A stretch of 42,680 nt of DNA from a bacterium (lineage in GTDB: Bacteria; Myxococcota_A; UBA9160; UBA6930). Position 1 is the stretch's first letter. Each line of letters begins with the position of its first letter. The translations under genes and the position numbers were made by a program. Shown piece after piece: positions 3,022 to 41,444 of this stretch. Location of the stretch: positions 1 through 42,680 of the forward strand of contig JAAETT010000128.1 of the NCBI GenBank assembly GCA_024228115.1, given 5' to 3'. The notes beneath the pieces are model-generated. The model was not told the origin of the DNA. It worked only from the letters and a program-made list of their open reading frames with translations, and made no database searches.

Positions 3022-4016
3022 TCAGGTGGACTTCACCCAGCTTGCGATGATGGTGGCGAGTTCGACTCCGCGGCCTTCCTGCAGGAAGTGGCCACCGCCC
3101 TCGATCGTGACATGAGGCTGTCCCTGGGCACCGGGAACACCACTCATGAAGGCCGCGGCGCCGCCGCCGGTCACCGGGTCGTTGTCACTGAAGGCGCAGA
3201 GGAGCGGCTTCTCCCAGGCCTCGAAGACTTTCCAGGCCGCCATCTGGGCCTCGCGGGAGGGATCGTCGGGCTGGGCATGGCCCGCGGTCCCATCTTGAAG
3301 CTCGGATCCGGAAACGGTGCGTCGTAGGCGGCCACTTCCTCCGGCGTCAGCGTGCGGCCATCGACCGAGCTCGCGACCATCATTCCGACCGGAACGTCTT
3401 CGGTCTCCCAGCACATCTTCTGCCAGTAGGCGAAGCTGCGCTCCGGAGTATCGCTGCCCTGTTTCGAGAGCTGGGCCATGACTTCGGGGATGGTCGGCGT
3501 GGGATCGTTGGCGCGAAAGCTCTTCACCCAGGCGACGCGTTCTTCGGGGATGTCCGCGGGCACGGGCAAACCCGTGTTCGCGACGACGACACGCGCGAAA
3601 CGCTCGGGCTTTGCGGCGACCATCCGCAGCCCGATCAGCCCTCCCCAATCCTGTCCGACGAGGGTCGCACCGCTGAAATCGTTCTGTTCGAGCCAGGCGC
3701 AGAGCCAATCGACCTGGCGTTGGTAGGTGATGTCTTCGCGAGCTGCCGGTTTGTCGGAGCGGCCGAACCCGACGAGGTCCGGCGCGATCACGCGCAAGCT
3801 GGCCTCGACCAACACCGGAATCATGTGCCGGTAGAGGTAGGACCAGGTCGGCTGACCGTGCATGCAGAGTACGATCTGCCCGTCGCGGGGACCTTCGTCT
3901 ACGTGATGGATGCGGAGGGTTCCAGCGTCGCCATCCGGTACTTCCGTGTAGTTCGGCTCGAACGGATAGCCGGGCAGATTCTGGAAGCGAGTGTCGGGGG
4001 TCCGCAGGGCCTTCAT
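3022..4016 (-). pseudogene. Haloalkane dehalogenase (HLD-I type) broken by a frameshift near 3272
   Basis: An alpha/beta-hydrolase that cleaves carbon-halogen bonds hydrolytically. Reading from ATG 4016 (MKALRTPDTRFQNLPGYPFE) gives the conserved start, the oxyanion segment MHGQPTWSYLYRHM, and the nucleophile elbow VGQDWGGLIGLR with the Asp nucleophile and halide-binding Trp. Frame is lost after GPRAMP at about 3273. The rest continues in another minus-strand frame from 3270 as PDDPSREAQMAAWKVFEAW, then AFSDNDP with the acidic residue and EGGGHFLQEG with the catalytic His, stopping at 3022. Family members usually have about six residues between the two segments, so a deletion of roughly 16 nt would explain both gap and frame. 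All catalytic residues survive but are in two frames. Either a true pseudogene or an assembly error. An upstream ATG at 4085 exists, but family alignment favours 4016. Confidence 0.85.
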
Positions 4017-25082: not shown

Positions 25083-26504
25083 CTAGGGAGCGGGCTCGAG
25101 CGCCTGCTCCAATAGCTCGTCGAAGGACGCCTGGAGGCACTCGGCGTAGAAGCCGGGATCGGGGAGCATCTTGCGGCATGCGGTGACCGAGATGCTGATG
25201 CGACCCGAACAACTGAAGACCGGGTGGATGATGCCCATGCCGTCCAGCACCGGCCCCATTCCGTAGAGGGCGCACATCTTCGCCCCGGTGAAGTAGAGCG
25301 GGATCTGCGGGCCCGGCACATTCGTGACGACGGTATTGCAGAAGGGCTTGACGGAATTGGCAAGGCCGAGGCGCGTGTACAGCCGCGCTGCCAATCCGAC
25401 CAGCGTGCCGGGCAGGAATTGCGCCACATCGGTCATGGTCTGGGCACCGATCGCCTCTGCCGTCTTCTTGGAAGCCTTCGTGCCGCGCTGCATCTTGCGC
25501 AGACGCTCGAGCGGGTCGCCCTCGTCGGTGTAGAGGGTCACTGACATGGCCGAGATCCGATTGCCTGCGCTCCCGGCCTCGTCATCGGAGCGGACGGAGA
25601 TCGGTGCCATCGCGACCAGGGGTTCGTCCGGAAGCTCACGATGGAATTCCAGGTACTTTCGAAGCGCACCGCCACAGACGGTGAGGATCACGTCGTTGAC
25701 GGTGGCGCCTGGAATTCGCTTGCGGATGTCACGAATATCCTGCAGAGAGAAGTTCCGGCCTTCGACGACCCGATGGCTGGAGATGGTGCCGTTGAAACGG
25801 GTGCGCGGAACATCCTTGATCTCATCCATCTCGTCTTCGGGTGAGCCGCGGAAGAAGTTCGCCACGCCCGGGATGGTCTGGCCGGCAACACGGACGAAGT
25901 TGAAAGGGCTACGGATGTTGTTGAGCGTGGTGCGAGCCGCCATTTCCAGGTAGGTGGGCTCGCGCTCCGGTATCCACTCTTCGTCCGGCGGCGCGGGCTC
26001 GGCATTCGGAGACGTATCGTGAATGGCCCCGGCAAGCTCAGCGCCGGAGACGCCGTCGATCGCTGCGTGGTGGATCTTCGTCATCACCGCGAAGCTTCCA
26101 GGAGGCATGCCTTCGACGTTGTCGAGGCCTTCGATCACATACATTTCCCAGAGCGGGCGGGAGAGATCCATGGGCCGCGAGTGGATCCGCGCCACCTGGA
26201 TGCAGAGCTGTCGCCAATCGCCCGGGTGGGGAAGTGCGATATGACGCACGTGGAATTCGAGATCGAATTCCGGGTCCTCCAGCCAGTAGGGATGGTCGAG
26301 ATTCATCGGTGCGTAGACGAGCTTCTGACGGAAGCAGCGCGCCAGATGCAGTCGACTCTCGACGTTCGCGAGGATCTGCTTGAAGGTGACGCGGCCGCCC
26401 GGCGCCGTCGATTGGTCGTAGATCGTGAAGGAGCCGATGTGGTTGGGCGCGTTGGCGGTCTCGAAGTTGAGAAACGAAGCATCCATCCCTGAGAGCTGCT
26501 GCAT
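25083..26504 (-). CDS. Wax ester synthase/diacylglycerol acyltransferase (WS/DGAT family)
   Basis: A 473-aa acyl-CoA-dependent O-acyltransferase that esterifies fatty alcohols or diacylglycerol into storage neutral lipid. The catalytic HHxxxDG motif is present in MTKIHHAAIDGVSGAEL. The start MQQLSGMDASFLNFE, RPLWEMYVIEGLDN and the C-terminal PFCNTVVTNVPGPQIPLYFTGA are family blocks. The ATG at 26504 has GGAGG six bases upstream. It lies 46 bp downstream of the amidase gene on the same strand, so the two may be one transcript. A second WS/DGAT at 32850-34256 shares the architecture but is clearly divergent. Substrate preference is not predictable. Confidence 0.92.
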   Translation of the reverse strand: MQQLSGMDASFLNFETANAPNHIGSFTIYDQSTAPGGRVTFKQILANVESRLHLARCFRQKLVYAPMNLDHPYWLEDPEFDLEFHVRHIALPHPGDWRQLCIQVARIHSRPMDLSRPLWEMYVIEGLDNVEGMPPGSFAVMTKIHHAAIDGVSGAELAGAIHDTSPNAEPAPPDEEWIPEREPTYLEMAARTTLNNIRSPFNFVRVAGQTIPGVANFFRGSPEDEMDEIKDVPRTRFNGTISSHRVVEGRNFSLQDIRDIRKRIPGATVNDVILTVCGGALRKYLEFHRELPDEPLVAMAPISVRSDDEAGSAGNRISAMSVTLYTDEGDPLERLRKMQRGTKASKKTAEAIGAQTMTDVAQFLPGTLVGLAARLYTRLGLANSVKPFCNTVVTNVPGPQIPLYFTGAKMCALYGMGPVLDGMGIIHPVFSCSGRISISVTACRKMLPDPGFYAECLQASFDELLEQALEPAP

Positions 26505-28075: not shown

Positions 28076-28549
28076 ATGGCCAGCATGTACGAATTGAAGG
28101 CGAACGCCATCTCCGGTGAAGAGATCGCTCTCTCCCAGTTCGAAGGGCAGCTCAGCCTGGTCGTCAACGTCGCCAGCCAGTGAGGCCTGACTGGCCAGTA
28201 CGCAGGTCTGCGTACCCTCCATCAGAACACCGACGGTCTCACGGTCATGGGCTTCCCCTGCAACCAGTTTGGAGCCCAGGAGCCCGGCACGAACGAAGAG
28301 ATCCTCGAGTTCGCGCGCTCCAAGTACGAGATCGATTTCCCGATGTTCGCCAAGATCGATGTGAACGGGGAGTCGGCCTCCGACCTCTACCGATTCCTCA
28401 AGGCTGGCAATCCGGATGAGGAAGGCAAGGAGGAGATCGCTTGGAACTTCACGAAGTTCCTGGTCGGAAAGGACGGGCAAGTGATCGCCCGCTACGGGCC
28501 GACGACGACGCCCGAAGACATCGGGGCGGGGCTGGCCGAGCACCTCTGA
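28076..28549 (+). CDS. Selenocysteine-containing glutathione peroxidase (in-frame UGA)
   Basis: A 157-aa thiol peroxidase read through the TGA at 28181-28183 as selenocysteine 36. Before it: MASMYELKANAISGEE and VVNVASQ; after it: GLTGQYAGLRTL, then GFPCNQFGAQEPG with catalytic Gln68, FPMFAKIDVNG, and IAWNFTKFLV with Trp123-Asn124, completing the tetrad. The UGA falls exactly where the family has Cys or Sec (NVASxUGxT). The resolving Cys of thioredoxin-dependent bacterial GPx is replaced by Ala80 (LEFARSKYE), as in selenium-type enzymes using an external thiol. A SECIS-like hairpin lies downstream of the UGA. Gene finders would call only a truncated 100-aa product from 28247. Sec machinery (selA-D) is not in this window. 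Confidence 0.9.
28181..28183 (+). other. Selenocysteine codon (UGA, residue 36)
   Basis: This TGA replaces the peroxidatic Cys codon in the conserved N-V-A-S-x-(C/U)-G-L-T motif. The reading frame is open and conserved on both sides for the full family length, which argues against a nonsense mutation. A stem-loop starts 14 nt after it. Confidence 0.88.
28198..28215 (+). promoter_or_regulatory. Bacterial SECIS element
   Basis: GTACGCA (28198-28204) pairs perfectly with TGCGTAC (28209-28215), closing a GGTC loop. The apical GCAGGUCUGC is the same as the apical part of the E. coli fdhF SECIS, the known SelB-binding hairpin. The loop starts 21 nt after the UGA, against 18 in fdhF, which is within the known range. 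It is inside the coding sequence, as bacterial SECIS elements are. Confidence 0.85.
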
Positions 28550-28595: not shown

Positions 28596-29060
28596 ATGGC
28601 AGCACGCAAGAGCGCGAGCAAGGTGACGAAGAAGGCCGCCGGCACGAAGAAGCCCGCGGCGAAAAAGGCTGCACCCAAGAAGGCAGCAACGAAGAAGGCT
28701 GCGACCCAGAAGGCTTCCGCCACGAAGAAGCCCGCGGCAAAGAAGGCTACGGCCAGGAAAGCCGCACCGAAGAAGGCAGCGGCCAAGAAGGCTGAAGCCA
28801 CGGAACCGGCCGCGAAGAAGCCGGCTGCCAAGAAAGCCGCCGGGAAGGGGGCCTCCGTCAAGGACGTCCACATGGGGCACATCTTTGCCCTGAAGCCCCG
28901 GGTCGACAAATCCTTTCGCCAGGAGGATCTCCGGAGAGCGAAGGAACTGCTCATCGACGAGGCCTACGAGAGCCCTGAGGCTGCGGCTCGAGCGCTCGCC
29001 GAAAGAGCACTCGAGCTGACGAGAAAAGGCCCGCCGAAGCGGGGCTTCAACAGCCGCTGA
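28596..29060 (+). CDS. Histone H1-like lysine/alanine-rich protein with a unique C-terminal domain
   Basis: A 154-aa basic protein. Residues 1-85 are built of KKA/KPAAKKA-type repeats (at least ten), as in bacterial histone H1-like and AlgP-type nucleoid or polyphosphate-binding proteins. Residues 86-154 are not low-complexity: VKDVHMGHIFALKPRV, FRQEDLRRAKELLIDEAYESPEAAARALAERALEL, ending KGPPKRGFNSR. That half is helical and not recognised by me. The start ATG follows the glutathione peroxidase stop by 46 bp on the same strand. Likely DNA- or RNA-binding by charge; the C-terminal domain could be a partner-binding module. Expression level and role are unknown. Confidence 0.75.
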   Translation: MAARKSASKVTKKAAGTKKPAAKKAAPKKAATKKAATQKASATKKPAAKKATARKAAPKKAAAKKAEATEPAAKKPAAKKAAGKGASVKDVHMGHIFALKPRVDKSFRQEDLRRAKELLIDEAYESPEAAARALAERALELTRKGPPKRGFNSR

Positions 29061-32849: not shown

Positions 32850-34256
32850 TCAGGCGATGGCGGTGACTTCGTCGATACCGGCTTCGATGCACTCGAGAAG
32901 ACCGTCCGGATCGGGGACCGCGTGGCGATCCGTGTTGATTCCAAGCTGGAGTTGGCCGTCGTAGCTGAAGAGCGTCACGTTGACGGCGGCGCCGGCCATG
33001 GGACCAAAGGGGAACATCTGCTCGATGCGCGCACCGCCGGTGTAGACGGGAAAGCGCGGGCCGGCCACGTTGCTGGTCACGAAGTCGACGGATTTCATCA
33101 TGCCACTGACGAACGAGGTGGCCGCCACGACACCCAGTCGGTTGATCGCGCCTGAGACCTCGTCCATCAGGGGAAGAGCGGGCTCCGACCGCTGGTCGCG
33201 TACCAGCTTCCGGATGGCCCTCATGCGTTTTTTCGGATCCGCGATCCCGATCGGTACATCGAAACGGGCCGGGACGAATTGGTTGCCGGCCTTCTTGCCT
33301 TCGTCGCCCTCGCGGATGTTGATCGGCATGTTCATGCGCAGGGCTTCCACGGGACGTCCATGCCCCTCGTGGTAGAGGCGCAGGCCGCCCGCAATGGCGG
33401 CTACGAATGCGTCGTTGAGCGTTCCGTCCACAGCCTTGGCCGCAGCGCGTAATGCGTCGAAGGAGACCAGGAGCGCATCGAGGTGGATCGAGAACGAGCG
33501 TTCGGTCCAGAGTGGAGAGTGCGGCTCGGTCGCGGGCTTGACCAGCCGGCCCACTGAGCTCGCCGTCTCAGCCATCTTGCGGGCGGCGCCGGTGGGATCC
33601 TTCGCCGCTTCCCAAAGGCCCCTGCCAAGGGCCTCGCTCAGCTTCAGGCCGCGTTCGGTGGCGGTCTTCACCCGATGTTGCACCGCGGACGCCAGCTGCT
33701 CCATTTCCGTGGCACGGTGCCAGGCGTCCGGGCCCTCGGCCAGGGTTCGCGGCCGGTCCCAACCGGGCTCCGGATCTCGGGAGCGCTCGATCAGGGAGTT
33801 GGTCATGCGGATCATTCCGACGCCATCCGAGATCGCGTGATGGATCTTCATGATCACGCCCGCGCGCCCGCCTTCGAGGCCTTCTACGAGATGGAACTCC
33901 CAGAGCGGACGGTCCTTGTCGAAGGCCTGGGATCCGATCGGTGCGGCGAGGTCGAGTAGATCCCGAAGGTCGCCTTCGCCGGGCGCGCGCAGGCGCCGCA
34001 CATGATAGGTGCGGTCGAAGAGCGGGTCCTCTTCCCAGCGCGGTGTCGCCACGCCCAGTCCATCAGCGACGACCCGTTGGCGAAGCCGCGGGATCGTGTC
34101 GACAGCACGGTCGAAGGTGGCCTCGAAGCGCTCCAGATCCGGCGAGCGGTCGAGGATCCAGACACTCAACACCGTAGAGCGTAAGATCGGATCGCGTTCG
34201 ATGTTCCACATCAACGCGTCGCCGTCGCTCATCCACTCTTCGTAGGTTACCGCCAT
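32850..34256 (-). CDS. Second wax ester synthase/diacylglycerol acyltransferase (WS/DGAT family)
   Basis: A 468-aa O-acyltransferase from ATG 34256 (MAVTYEEWMSDGDALMWNIE). The HHxxxDG motif is in MKIHHAISDGVGMIRM and the C-terminal family block is SVDFVTSNVAGPRFPVYTGGARIEQMFPFGP. DRPLWEFHLVEGLEGG is the equivalent of the first copy's RPLWEMYVIEG. A central insertion (about 185-260) is longer than in the copy at 25083-26504. It may make storage wax esters or triacylglycerol, or may esterify other alcohols; the two copies may differ in substrate. Its ribosome binding site lies inside a GC hairpin directly before the ATG. Confidence 0.9.
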   Translation of the reverse strand: MAVTYEEWMSDGDALMWNIERDPILRSTVLSVWILDRSPDLERFEATFDRAVDTIPRLRQRVVADGLGVATPRWEEDPLFDRTYHVRRLRAPGEGDLRDLLDLAAPIGSQAFDKDRPLWEFHLVEGLEGGRAGVIMKIHHAISDGVGMIRMTNSLIERSRDPEPGWDRPRTLAEGPDAWHRATEMEQLASAVQHRVKTATERGLKLSEALGRGLWEAAKDPTGAARKMAETASSVGRLVKPATEPHSPLWTERSFSIHLDALLVSFDALRAAAKAVDGTLNDAFVAAIAGGLRLYHEGHGRPVEALRMNMPINIREGDEGKKAGNQFVPARFDVPIGIADPKKRMRAIRKLVRDQRSEPALPLMDEVSGAINRLGVVAATSFVSGMMKSVDFVTSNVAGPRFPVYTGGARIEQMFPFGPMAGAAVNVTLFSYDGQLQLGINTDRHAVPDPDGLLECIEAGIDEVTAIA

Positions 34257-34258
34257 GG

Positions 34259-34275
34259 GGGGCCTCCGAGGCCCC
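34259..34275 (-). promoter_or_regulatory. GC hairpin that covers the ribosome binding site of the second WS/DGAT gene
   Basis: On the minus strand GGGGCCT and AGGCCCC pair over a three-base loop, ending two bases before the ATG at 34256. The only Shine-Dalgarno-like run, GGAGG, spans the loop and 3' arm, so folding would block ribosome entry. This could act as a passive translation limiter or a switch. Seen in sequence; regulation is inferred. Confidence 0.5.
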
Positions 34276-34365
34276 ATTGTAGGACAGGAGGCGGAAGCGG
34301 CGGCGAGAAACATCCCCAGCCCCGTTTTCGTGGCCTATCGGAAGGAGGCTTTTCGCGGGGCCCGC

Positions 34366-39089: not shown

Positions 39090-41444
39090 ATGAACGACGT
39101 TGCCCAGGTCGATCCCTCCGTCTCGAAGACGCCGCTTCCGCTCGATGCGAAGGGCCTCTCCACCGTCTGCGTCCTGTGCAGCCACAACTGCGGGATCCAG
39201 ATCGATGTGAAGGGAGGGAAGATCGAGAAGGTCCGGGCCGACGAGACGAACCCGATCTCCAAGGGCTACATCTGCAACAAGGGCTTCAGTGTCGCGCGCT
39301 ACGCGCACCATGAGCAGCGCACCCAGCATCCGCTGCGACGCCGCGCGGACGGTTCCTTCGAGCGCATCGATTGGGATACGGCGATCCGCGAGATCGGCGA
39401 GAAGCTCTCCACCATCCGGGAGGAGCACTCGCCGCGGGCCATTGCCCTGGCGGGTGTCGGGGGCCAGGCCAATCACATGGATGGCAACTACGCGTTGTCG
39501 TTCCTGAGCGGGTTGGGTTCACCCTGGTGGTTCAACGCGTTGGGCCAGGAAAAGACGCAACACTTCCTGGTCGACCAGTGGATGTTCGACTCGCCGCCGC
39601 AGAACTGGTTCCACCCCGATATCGAGAACACGAAGCTGTTGCTCGCGTTGGGGACGAACCCCCGGATCTCGAATCGTGGGCATAATGCCAACGACACCTT
39701 CAAGCGTTTCTCGGAGAACCCGGACCAACGCATGATCGTCGTGGACCCGAGGGAGACCGAGACCACCCGTCAAGCAGATCGCCATCTCAAGACGAAGCCC
39801 GGAAGCGACGCTTTTCTCCTGCTCGGGATCGCCGCGACGCTGACGACCAGTGAAGGGTTGGCCGATGCGGCATTCATCCAGGCCCACACCAGGGATTTCG
39901 ACGTCCTGCAGAAGAGCCTGGCCGAGGTCGACGTCGCTGAGATGGCCGAGCGTAGTGGCATCACGCTGGATGAGCTGCAGGGCGTGACCCAGGAGCTGGC
40001 CAGCTCCGATTCGGCCGCGATCATGTTCGATCTGGCCGTCGAGCAGCTGCCCCACTCAACGCTGATCTCGTATCTGATCCGGGTGATCTCTTCCCTTACC
40101 GGAAACGCGGTTCAACCGGGTGGGAACCTCTTCATGGAAACCCAGGCGCCGCCCGAGTGGAGCCCGAAACGTTGGGCGCCGCTTCCGGCCACCCGCGAAG
40201 CGGGGATACGGGGCATTGCCGCAATCGGCGGTTTCCCGATGTACTCACCGACGCTGCTCTCGGAGGAGATCACGGTCGACCATCCGGAGCGCATTCGCGG
40301 GCTCATCGTGGAGGGAGCCAATCCGATCCTCTCGTACTCGGACGCAAACGCATTTCGAGAGGCGCGCAAACAGCTCGATCTCCTGGTCGTGATCGACCCG
40401 GCCATGACCGAAACGGCCCTGCTGGCGGACTACGTGTTGCCGACGCCGTGTGGGTACGAAAAATGGGAGACATCGGGCTTTCCGCGCTCGTCGTCCTCGG
40501 TCTTCCTCCAACTGCGGCCGCCGATCATCCCGGGACCCGAGGAAGCGCTGCCCGAGCCCGAGATCTACGTCCGGCTGGCCGAGGCGATGGGTCTCGTCCG
40601 GGAGGTCCCGGCGGAACTCTGCGAGCTGGCCCCGGCCGGAACTACGGCCGAGGGTGCCGCTGCGATCTTCGGGAAGGTGCAGGAGCTGGCGACGAGCCGC
40701 ACCGAGATCCTTTTCTGGGGTTACCGCAGTCTCGGGGCAGAGCTGGCAGCGCCCTCCTTGATCGCGATCTGGGTGACGGCTCTGCAGAATGCCTTCGGCC
40801 GGCGCGATTCCGTCGTGCGCAGCTTCGGTGAAACCTGGAAGGACGTCGGGCCGTTCGAGTTGGCGATGGAGATCTATCGCAGGGTGCTGGAGCATCCGGA
40901 AGGCGTCGAGATCGCCCGTACGGTTCCGGCGGGCGAGGCGTTCGACGCATGCGTCGGTTGGGAAGACAAGAAGATCCGTCTGGCGCCCGAGGACATGCTG
41001 CCCGAGATCGCTCGTGCGATCGACACACCGCTGCCGACCGACCCGGAATACCCCATGGTGCTGGCGAGCGGTCTACGCACGAGATGGAATTGCAACACGG
41101 TCCAGCGCGATCCGAAATGGCGAAAGGGCCGCGGCCCTCATTGCTCGTTGCACCTGGCTCCTGCAGATGCGGCGCGGCTCGGCATCGAGGAAGGCGAGCA
41201 GGTACGGCTTGCGACGAAGCGGGGGGCCGTCGAACTGCCTGCGGCCGTGGACGACCGGCTCCAGGCGGGCCATGTGTGGGTCCCGAATGGCTTCGGCATG
41301 GCATACCCGAGTGGGCCCGGCGGTGAGTTGGAGGTTCAGGGTGCCAACTTGAACGAAATCTCGGATGCAGCCGACCGGGATCCGATCACGGGCTGCCCCC
41401 ATCACAAGTACACCCTTTGTCGCGTGGAGAAAGCTGCAGCGTGA
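39090..41444 (+). CDS. Molybdopterin-dependent oxidoreductase (DMSO reductase/formate dehydrogenase superfamily)
   Basis: A 784-aa protein. An N-terminal 4Fe-4S domain has Cys27, Cys30, Cys34 and Cys62 (VCVLCSHNCGIQI, GYICNKG). The bis-MGD fold includes GVGGQANHMDGNYALSFL, LALGTNPRISNRGHNANDTF, VVDPRETETTRQADRHL, and the C-terminal MoCo-binding domain with HCSLHLAPADAARLGIEEGE and WVPNGFGMAYPSG. The region that normally provides a Cys, Sec or Ser Mo ligand (near ALGQEKTQHFLVDQWMF) has no obvious Cys; the ligand cannot be assigned. No Tat signal is visible, so it may be cytoplasmic. ATG 39090 has AGGA upstream. It overlaps the LLM oxidoreductase by 4 nt, so the two should act on the same pathway, but the substrate is unknown. 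Confidence 0.88.
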   Translation: MNDVAQVDPSVSKTPLPLDAKGLSTVCVLCSHNCGIQIDVKGGKIEKVRADETNPISKGYICNKGFSVARYAHHEQRTQHPLRRRADGSFERIDWDTAIREIGEKLSTIREEHSPRAIALAGVGGQANHMDGNYALSFLSGLGSPWWFNALGQEKTQHFLVDQWMFDSPPQNWFHPDIENTKLLLALGTNPRISNRGHNANDTFKRFSENPDQRMIVVDPRETETTRQADRHLKTKPGSDAFLLLGIAATLTTSEGLADAAFIQAHTRDFDVLQKSLAEVDVAEMAERSGITLDELQGVTQELASSDSAAIMFDLAVEQLPHSTLISYLIRVISSLTGNAVQPGGNLFMETQAPPEWSPKRWAPLPATREAGIRGIAAIGGFPMYSPTLLSEEITVDHPERIRGLIVEGANPILSYSDANAFREARKQLDLLVVIDPAMTETALLADYVLPTPCGYEKWETSGFPRSSSSVFLQLRPPIIPGPEEALPEPEIYVRLAEAMGLVREVPAELCELAPAGTTAEGAAAIFGKVQELATSRTEILFWGYRSLGAELAAPSLIAIWVTALQNAFGRRDSVVRSFGETWKDVGPFELAMEIYRRVLEHPEGVEIARTVPAGEAFDACVGWEDKKIRLAPEDMLPEIARAIDTPLPTDPEYPMVLASGLRTRWNCNTVQRDPKWRKGRGPHCSLHLAPADAARLGIEEGEQVRLATKRGAVELPAAVDDRLQAGHVWVPNGFGMAYPSGPGGELEVQGANLNEISDAADRDPITGCPHHKYTLCRVEKAAA

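Follow-up and report, generated by a model that had tools for sequence, protein, structure and literature searches.

A glutathione peroxidase gene with a predicted selenocysteine codon and SECIS hairpin in a Myxococcota genome, and loss of the resolving cysteine in its clade

The window analysed here, a stretch of 42,680 nucleotides (contig JAAETT010000128.1), carries on its plus strand a glutathione peroxidase (GPx) gene with an in-frame TGA. Read-through translation of 28076-28549 gives a protein of 157 residues, followed by a TGA stop codon at 28547-28549. This product matches the GSHPx family (PF00255) from end to end (profile positions 1-108 of 108) with 129.6 bits against a curated cut-off of 27, in agreement with the original prediction of a full-length GPx. 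ORF calling with table 11 yields only the frame 28247-28549 at this locus, reproducing the 100-residue fragment that standard gene finding had been expected to report. Elsewhere in the window, two wax ester synthase/diacylglycerol acyltransferases are encoded on the minus strand (25083-26504 and 32850-34313), which suggests storage lipid metabolism, and a molybdopterin oxidoreductase related to the formate dehydrogenase alpha subunit, without internal TGA, is encoded on the plus strand (39162-41426). No Rfam match was found within the window. The features of the GPx locus are:

28076..28549, plus strand: Sec-containing glutathione peroxidase gene, predicted from the read-through translation, PF00255 and full-length TGA homologues
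28181..28183, plus strand: in-frame UGA, Sec36 at the peroxidatic position, from the alignment and from TGA versus TGC/TGT homologue loci
28198..28215, plus strand: putative bSECIS hairpin with a 7-bp stem and GGUC loop, from the fold, near-invariance, paired changes, synonymous-site constraint and a CM match
28201..28201, plus strand: 5' base of a covarying SECIS pair, in the third position of the Tyr42 codon (C; U in L039 and L046)
28212..28212, plus strand: 3' base of the same pair (G; A in L039 and L046, changing Arg46 to His)
28259..28261, plus strand: Cys62 in an FPCNQF motif, the sole Cys codon of the protein besides Sec36
28277..28279, plus strand: Gln68 of the catalytic tetrad, kept in 36/36 Sec and 65/65 Cys forms
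28313..28315, plus strand: Ala80 at the position of the resolving Cys, from the alignment with Cys homologues
28442..28447, plus strand: Trp123-Asn124 of the catalytic tetrad, from the alignment

Alignment confirmed that the TGA lies in the GPx frame at the peroxidatic position, and likewise the earlier assignments of Gln68, Ala80, Trp123 and Asn124, along with Sec36 and Cys62. Codon 36 is TGA at 39 of the homologue loci and TGC or TGT at 65. The tetrad U36-Q68-W123-N124 is complete in the window GPx and is conserved in Sec and Cys forms alike, and the UxxT motif reads U-GLT. The gene would encode a GPx4-type peroxidase, short and presumably monomeric. Its likeness to animal GPx4 extends to the short monomeric type, the Sec, the Gln/Trp/Asn tetrad and the lack of a classical resolving Cys. 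In comparison with solved structures, GPx4 chains score about 120–126 bits, and the closest structure is 2p5q, a glutathione peroxidase 5, with 149 bits. A clear difference is the position of the SECIS element, which lies within the coding region in the window gene, whereas animal GPx4 has an eSECIS in the 3'UTR.

The hairpin sequence GTACGCA-GGTC-TGCGTAC at 28198-28215 is exactly the perfect 7-bp hairpin with a GGTC loop described originally, and folding confirms it at -9.5 kcal/mol, with none of 200 shuffled sequences being equally stable. Its 4-nt GGUC loop begins 21 nt after the UGA, and together with the 7-bp stem this agrees with the published bSECIS geometry (loop of 3–9 nt, stem of 4–16 bp, a G in the first two loop positions, and the loop 16–37 nt after the UGA; PMC13188914). 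Among the 832 TGA triplets on both strands of the window, only that of the GPx gene has, 16–37 nt downstream, a hairpin with a GG tetraloop and a stem of 7 bp or more. The element had been called fdhF-like, and this description is valid for the top 10 nt only. These 10 nt, the apical GCAGGTCTGC, form a GGUC loop closed by a GCA/UGC stem and agree letter for letter with E. coli fdhF, in which the shared GCAGGUCUGC is also read in the same Ala-Gly-Leu phase (checked on NC_000913.3). Below the apical stem, however, the E. coli fdhF SECIS has a bulged U, whereas the window hairpin is a continuous helix of 7 bp, and the stem is 100% paired across 31 distinct sequences. The distance from UGA to loop also differs, being 18 nt in E. 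coli fdhF.

Several observations point to selection on this hairpin as RNA. Over 34 sequences, codons 41–46 are almost frozen as CAG TAY GCA GGT CTG CRT, including GCA, GGT and CGT, which are minority codons elsewhere in the Sec GPx genes. Mean codon entropy at residues 41–47 is 0.19, whereas the remaining conserved residues in these genes reach 1.10 (p about 8e-5) and the hairpin columns in Cys homologues 1.51. All stem pairs are retained in the 31 distinct sequences, the pair 28201-28212 being C-G in 28, U-G in one and U-A in two. The latter two, L039 and L046, combine a silent change in the Tyr codon with a matching Arg46 to His replacement, such that the RNA pair was preserved while the protein had to change. 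These two sequences are sister tips in the GPx tree (support 87/78), and the U-A double change may therefore be a single event. RNA structure here overrides protein sequence.

The prediction that a Sec machinery should be encoded elsewhere in the genome was borne out, as selA, selB, selC (tRNA-Sec) and selD were all found in the draft assembly (6.4 Mb, 700 contigs, 97% complete). SelA scores 455 bits, and SelB, from an ORF of 646 residues, scores 286 bits and has an additional match at the C-terminus. SelD (353 bits) has an in-frame TGA of its own in the context TCGUAAKIGP. There are two selD genes, L013 (G000:C360, minus strand) and L014 (G000:C99), one of which is a TGA selenoprotein gene and the other a frame without internal stop. 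The tRNA-Sec, identified by two programs, has a UCA anticodon and scores 71 bits, above the Rfam threshold. In addition, a formate dehydrogenase alpha subunit (FdhA) has an in-frame TGA in the context AATUHAPTVAGL. Together with the sel genes it supports Sec decoding independently of GPx. At this fdhA locus (L138, G000:C573, minus strand; TGA at about locus position 3130), a hairpin containing GGUC follows the TGA at 18 nt and shares the Ala-Gly-Leu phase of E. coli fdhF. A search of the genome with a CM of the GPx SECIS recovered GPx itself with 63.7 bits, the next best hit reaching 15.1 bits (E 0.35). As no second gene with a GPx-type SECIS was found in this genome-wide search, the SECIS elements of SelD and FdhA differ from that of GPx, apart from the GGUC loop of FdhA. 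A binning error is possible in principle in a draft of 700 contigs with the machinery genes on other contigs, but selA is present in nearly all relatives of the same order. A second GPx-like gene in this genome (L002, G000:C85:22200-22514) is a Cys form with Cys80 and without the tetrad Gln and Trp-Asn.

We consider it almost certain that the GPx with UGA 28181 is a Sec enzyme, made with the organism's own SelA, SelB, SelC and SelD, directed by the hairpin, acting through the tetrad and most likely dependent on an external thiol for its reduction. The sequence data argue strongly for Sec incorporation, and suggest SelB binding, peroxidase activity and the type of reductant. According to this model, UGA 28181 would be decoded as selenocysteine by the organism's own SelA/SelB/SelC/SelD, with SelB and Sec-tRNA binding the hairpin 28198-28215 just 3' of the UGA. 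The Sec36-Gln68-Trp123-Asn124 site would reduce hydroperoxides, and an external thiol would most likely reduce the oxidised selenium. Glutathione is the probable candidate, and the genome has the genes for its synthesis. External-thiol reduction is favoured because the usual resolving Cys is gone and because the window protein has no Cys besides Sec36 other than Cys62. GshA (GCS2, 218 bits) and GshB (220 bits) are encoded in the genome, consistent with a one-Sec mechanism in which glutathione or a different small thiol serves as the reductant.

An alternative reading accepts the Sec enzyme, but has it reduced through an internal selenenylsulfide, for instance with Cys62, or by thioredoxin instead of glutathione. 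Cys62 is indeed kept in 36/36 Sec forms, one or two additional Cys residues occur in many members of the clade (in the window protein, none), and bacterial Cys-GPx can accept thioredoxin (PMC8614756). However, Cys62 is equally kept in 64/65 Cys forms, where Cys80 is the resolver, and so need not act as a resolver in the Sec forms. Thioredoxin-dependent 2-Cys GPx is marked by the resolving Cys80, which the window GPx lacks, and the glutathione synthesis genes also speak against this alternative, which we therefore consider unlikely, albeit with a real chance of being correct.

The distribution of the TGA form bears on the Sec reading as a whole. In a comparison set of 148 genomes, comprising the source genome and relatives, a TGA GPx was found in 35, all of them SelA-positive (35/35), and in none of the 38 SelA-less genomes; the association has a Fisher p of about 1e-5, in a test that takes no account of shared ancestry and is inflated by it. 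The TGA homologues in related genomes are full-length and mostly 55–69% identical. A pseudogene or sequencing error, in which the TGA would be a nonsense change and the gene dead or misread, would be in line with the normal role of TGA as a stop and with the short fragment from standard ORF calling. Yet the TGA is kept at the same codon in 35 genomes with the frame intact on both sides, at mostly about 55–69% protein identity, which excludes a sequencing error or lone nonsense mutation. In addition, the synonymous sites of the hairpin are frozen and the TGA form is restricted to SelA-carrying genomes, and this explanation was rejected as having practically no chance of being right. A changed genetic code that assigns UGA to a standard amino acid (Trp, Gly or Cys) would also let the frame continue past the TGA, but it was dismissed as wholly improbable since the GPx gene itself stops at TGA 28547, a genuine tRNA-Sec with the anticodon UCA is encoded in the genome, and internal UGAs in the families searched occur only at the known Sec positions of GPx, SelD and FdhA. 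With the machinery genes present and the TGA conserved, the original interpretation as a Sec-GPx is supported.

In a named collection, nine TGA loci were identified (one of them, L128, from a congener already counted), all in SelA-positive genomes, two of which have a partial SelA at contig edges. They include loci from Acidimicrobiia, Pseudomonadales and Planctomycetota bins. The Sec-GPx of three Acidimicrobiia loci (L060, L062, L063) and of the Pseudomonadales locus (L061) share the SECIS of the Myxococcota clade. The Acidimicrobiia members also fall inside the Myxococcota-centred Sec clade of the GPx tree, which together with the shared SECIS suggests horizontal transfer to this group. Gene and SECIS were likely transferred together to Acidimicrobiia and Pseudomonadales, the alternative being a binning error. 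Viral contigs contained no GPx relative. The plasmid relatives are all less than 60% identical, and the one inspected, a match in Photobacterium without annotation, is of the Cys type. No conserved neighbourhood was found in loci with about 1.5–3 kb flanks, the flanking amidase, histone-like and PNPOx genes being shared with the closest congener only, and the GPx locus thus gives no sign of a conserved operon. The gene directly downstream of GPx (28596-29060, plus strand) encodes a Lys/Ala-rich histone H1-like protein (HC2, below cut-off).

Family tree analysis of 101 GPx sequences groups 34 Sec forms in one monophyletic clade (support 100/98), with a pair of Planctomycetota Sec forms placed separately, which implies two changes of the Sec label. 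The loss of the resolving Cys, noted originally for the window GPx (Ala80), was found to be true of the entire clade, as Cys80 is present in 65/65 Cys homologues and in 0/34 of the large Sec clade. The Planctomycetota Sec-GPx (L105:3091 and L112:3091) retain Cys80 and have an unrelated hairpin, CCUGC-AGUU-GCAGG. The large Sec clade, centred on Myxococcota, appears as a parallel to animal GPx4. We tentatively propose, as a scenario with somewhat less than an even chance, that this bacterial Sec-GPx lineage arose independently of animals, first acquiring Sec and then losing the resolving Cys, and thereby passing from a thioredoxin-type to a glutathione-type one-Sec enzyme, with the Planctomycetota lineage as a younger parallel at the intermediate stage.

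Bacterial Sec-GPx have been reported from the Sargasso Sea and GOS metagenomes (PMC1088965, PMC2398784), and a 2026 review (PMC13188914) lists a bacterial Sec-GPX-like family (PF00255, UxxT) among the high-confidence predictions. The earlier statement that Sec-GPx is uncommon in bacteria has to be qualified, since the family had already been described as predicted in these papers. The window GPx resembles this family in its Sec at the peroxidatic position, UxxT motif, in-frame bSECIS directly downstream and bacterial flanking genes, and differs in belonging to a mainly Myxococcota clade, from which the gene has probably passed to Acidimicrobiia and Pseudomonadales. No description of a Myxococcota-centred Sec clade or of resolving-Cys loss was found in the literature on this family, nor any relevant paper on Sec-GPx in Myxococcota, where the single hit was a study of potato fields. 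As judged from titles and abstracts, no paper on a coupled loss of this kind in bacteria was recognised. PMC8614756 argues for a specifically animal gain of Sec in GPx and for a resolving Cys as a feature of bacterial GPx. To the rule on the resolving Cys, as worded there, the Myxococcota-centred clade is an exception, and it complicates an animal-only gain of Sec.

The replacement of Cys by Sec becomes testable in these lineages, as Sec and the resolving Cys are mutually exclusive in the large clade and occur together in the Planctomycetota lineage. Since ordinary gene finding cuts such genes short, many environmental Myxococcota may have a peroxidase that goes unnoticed.
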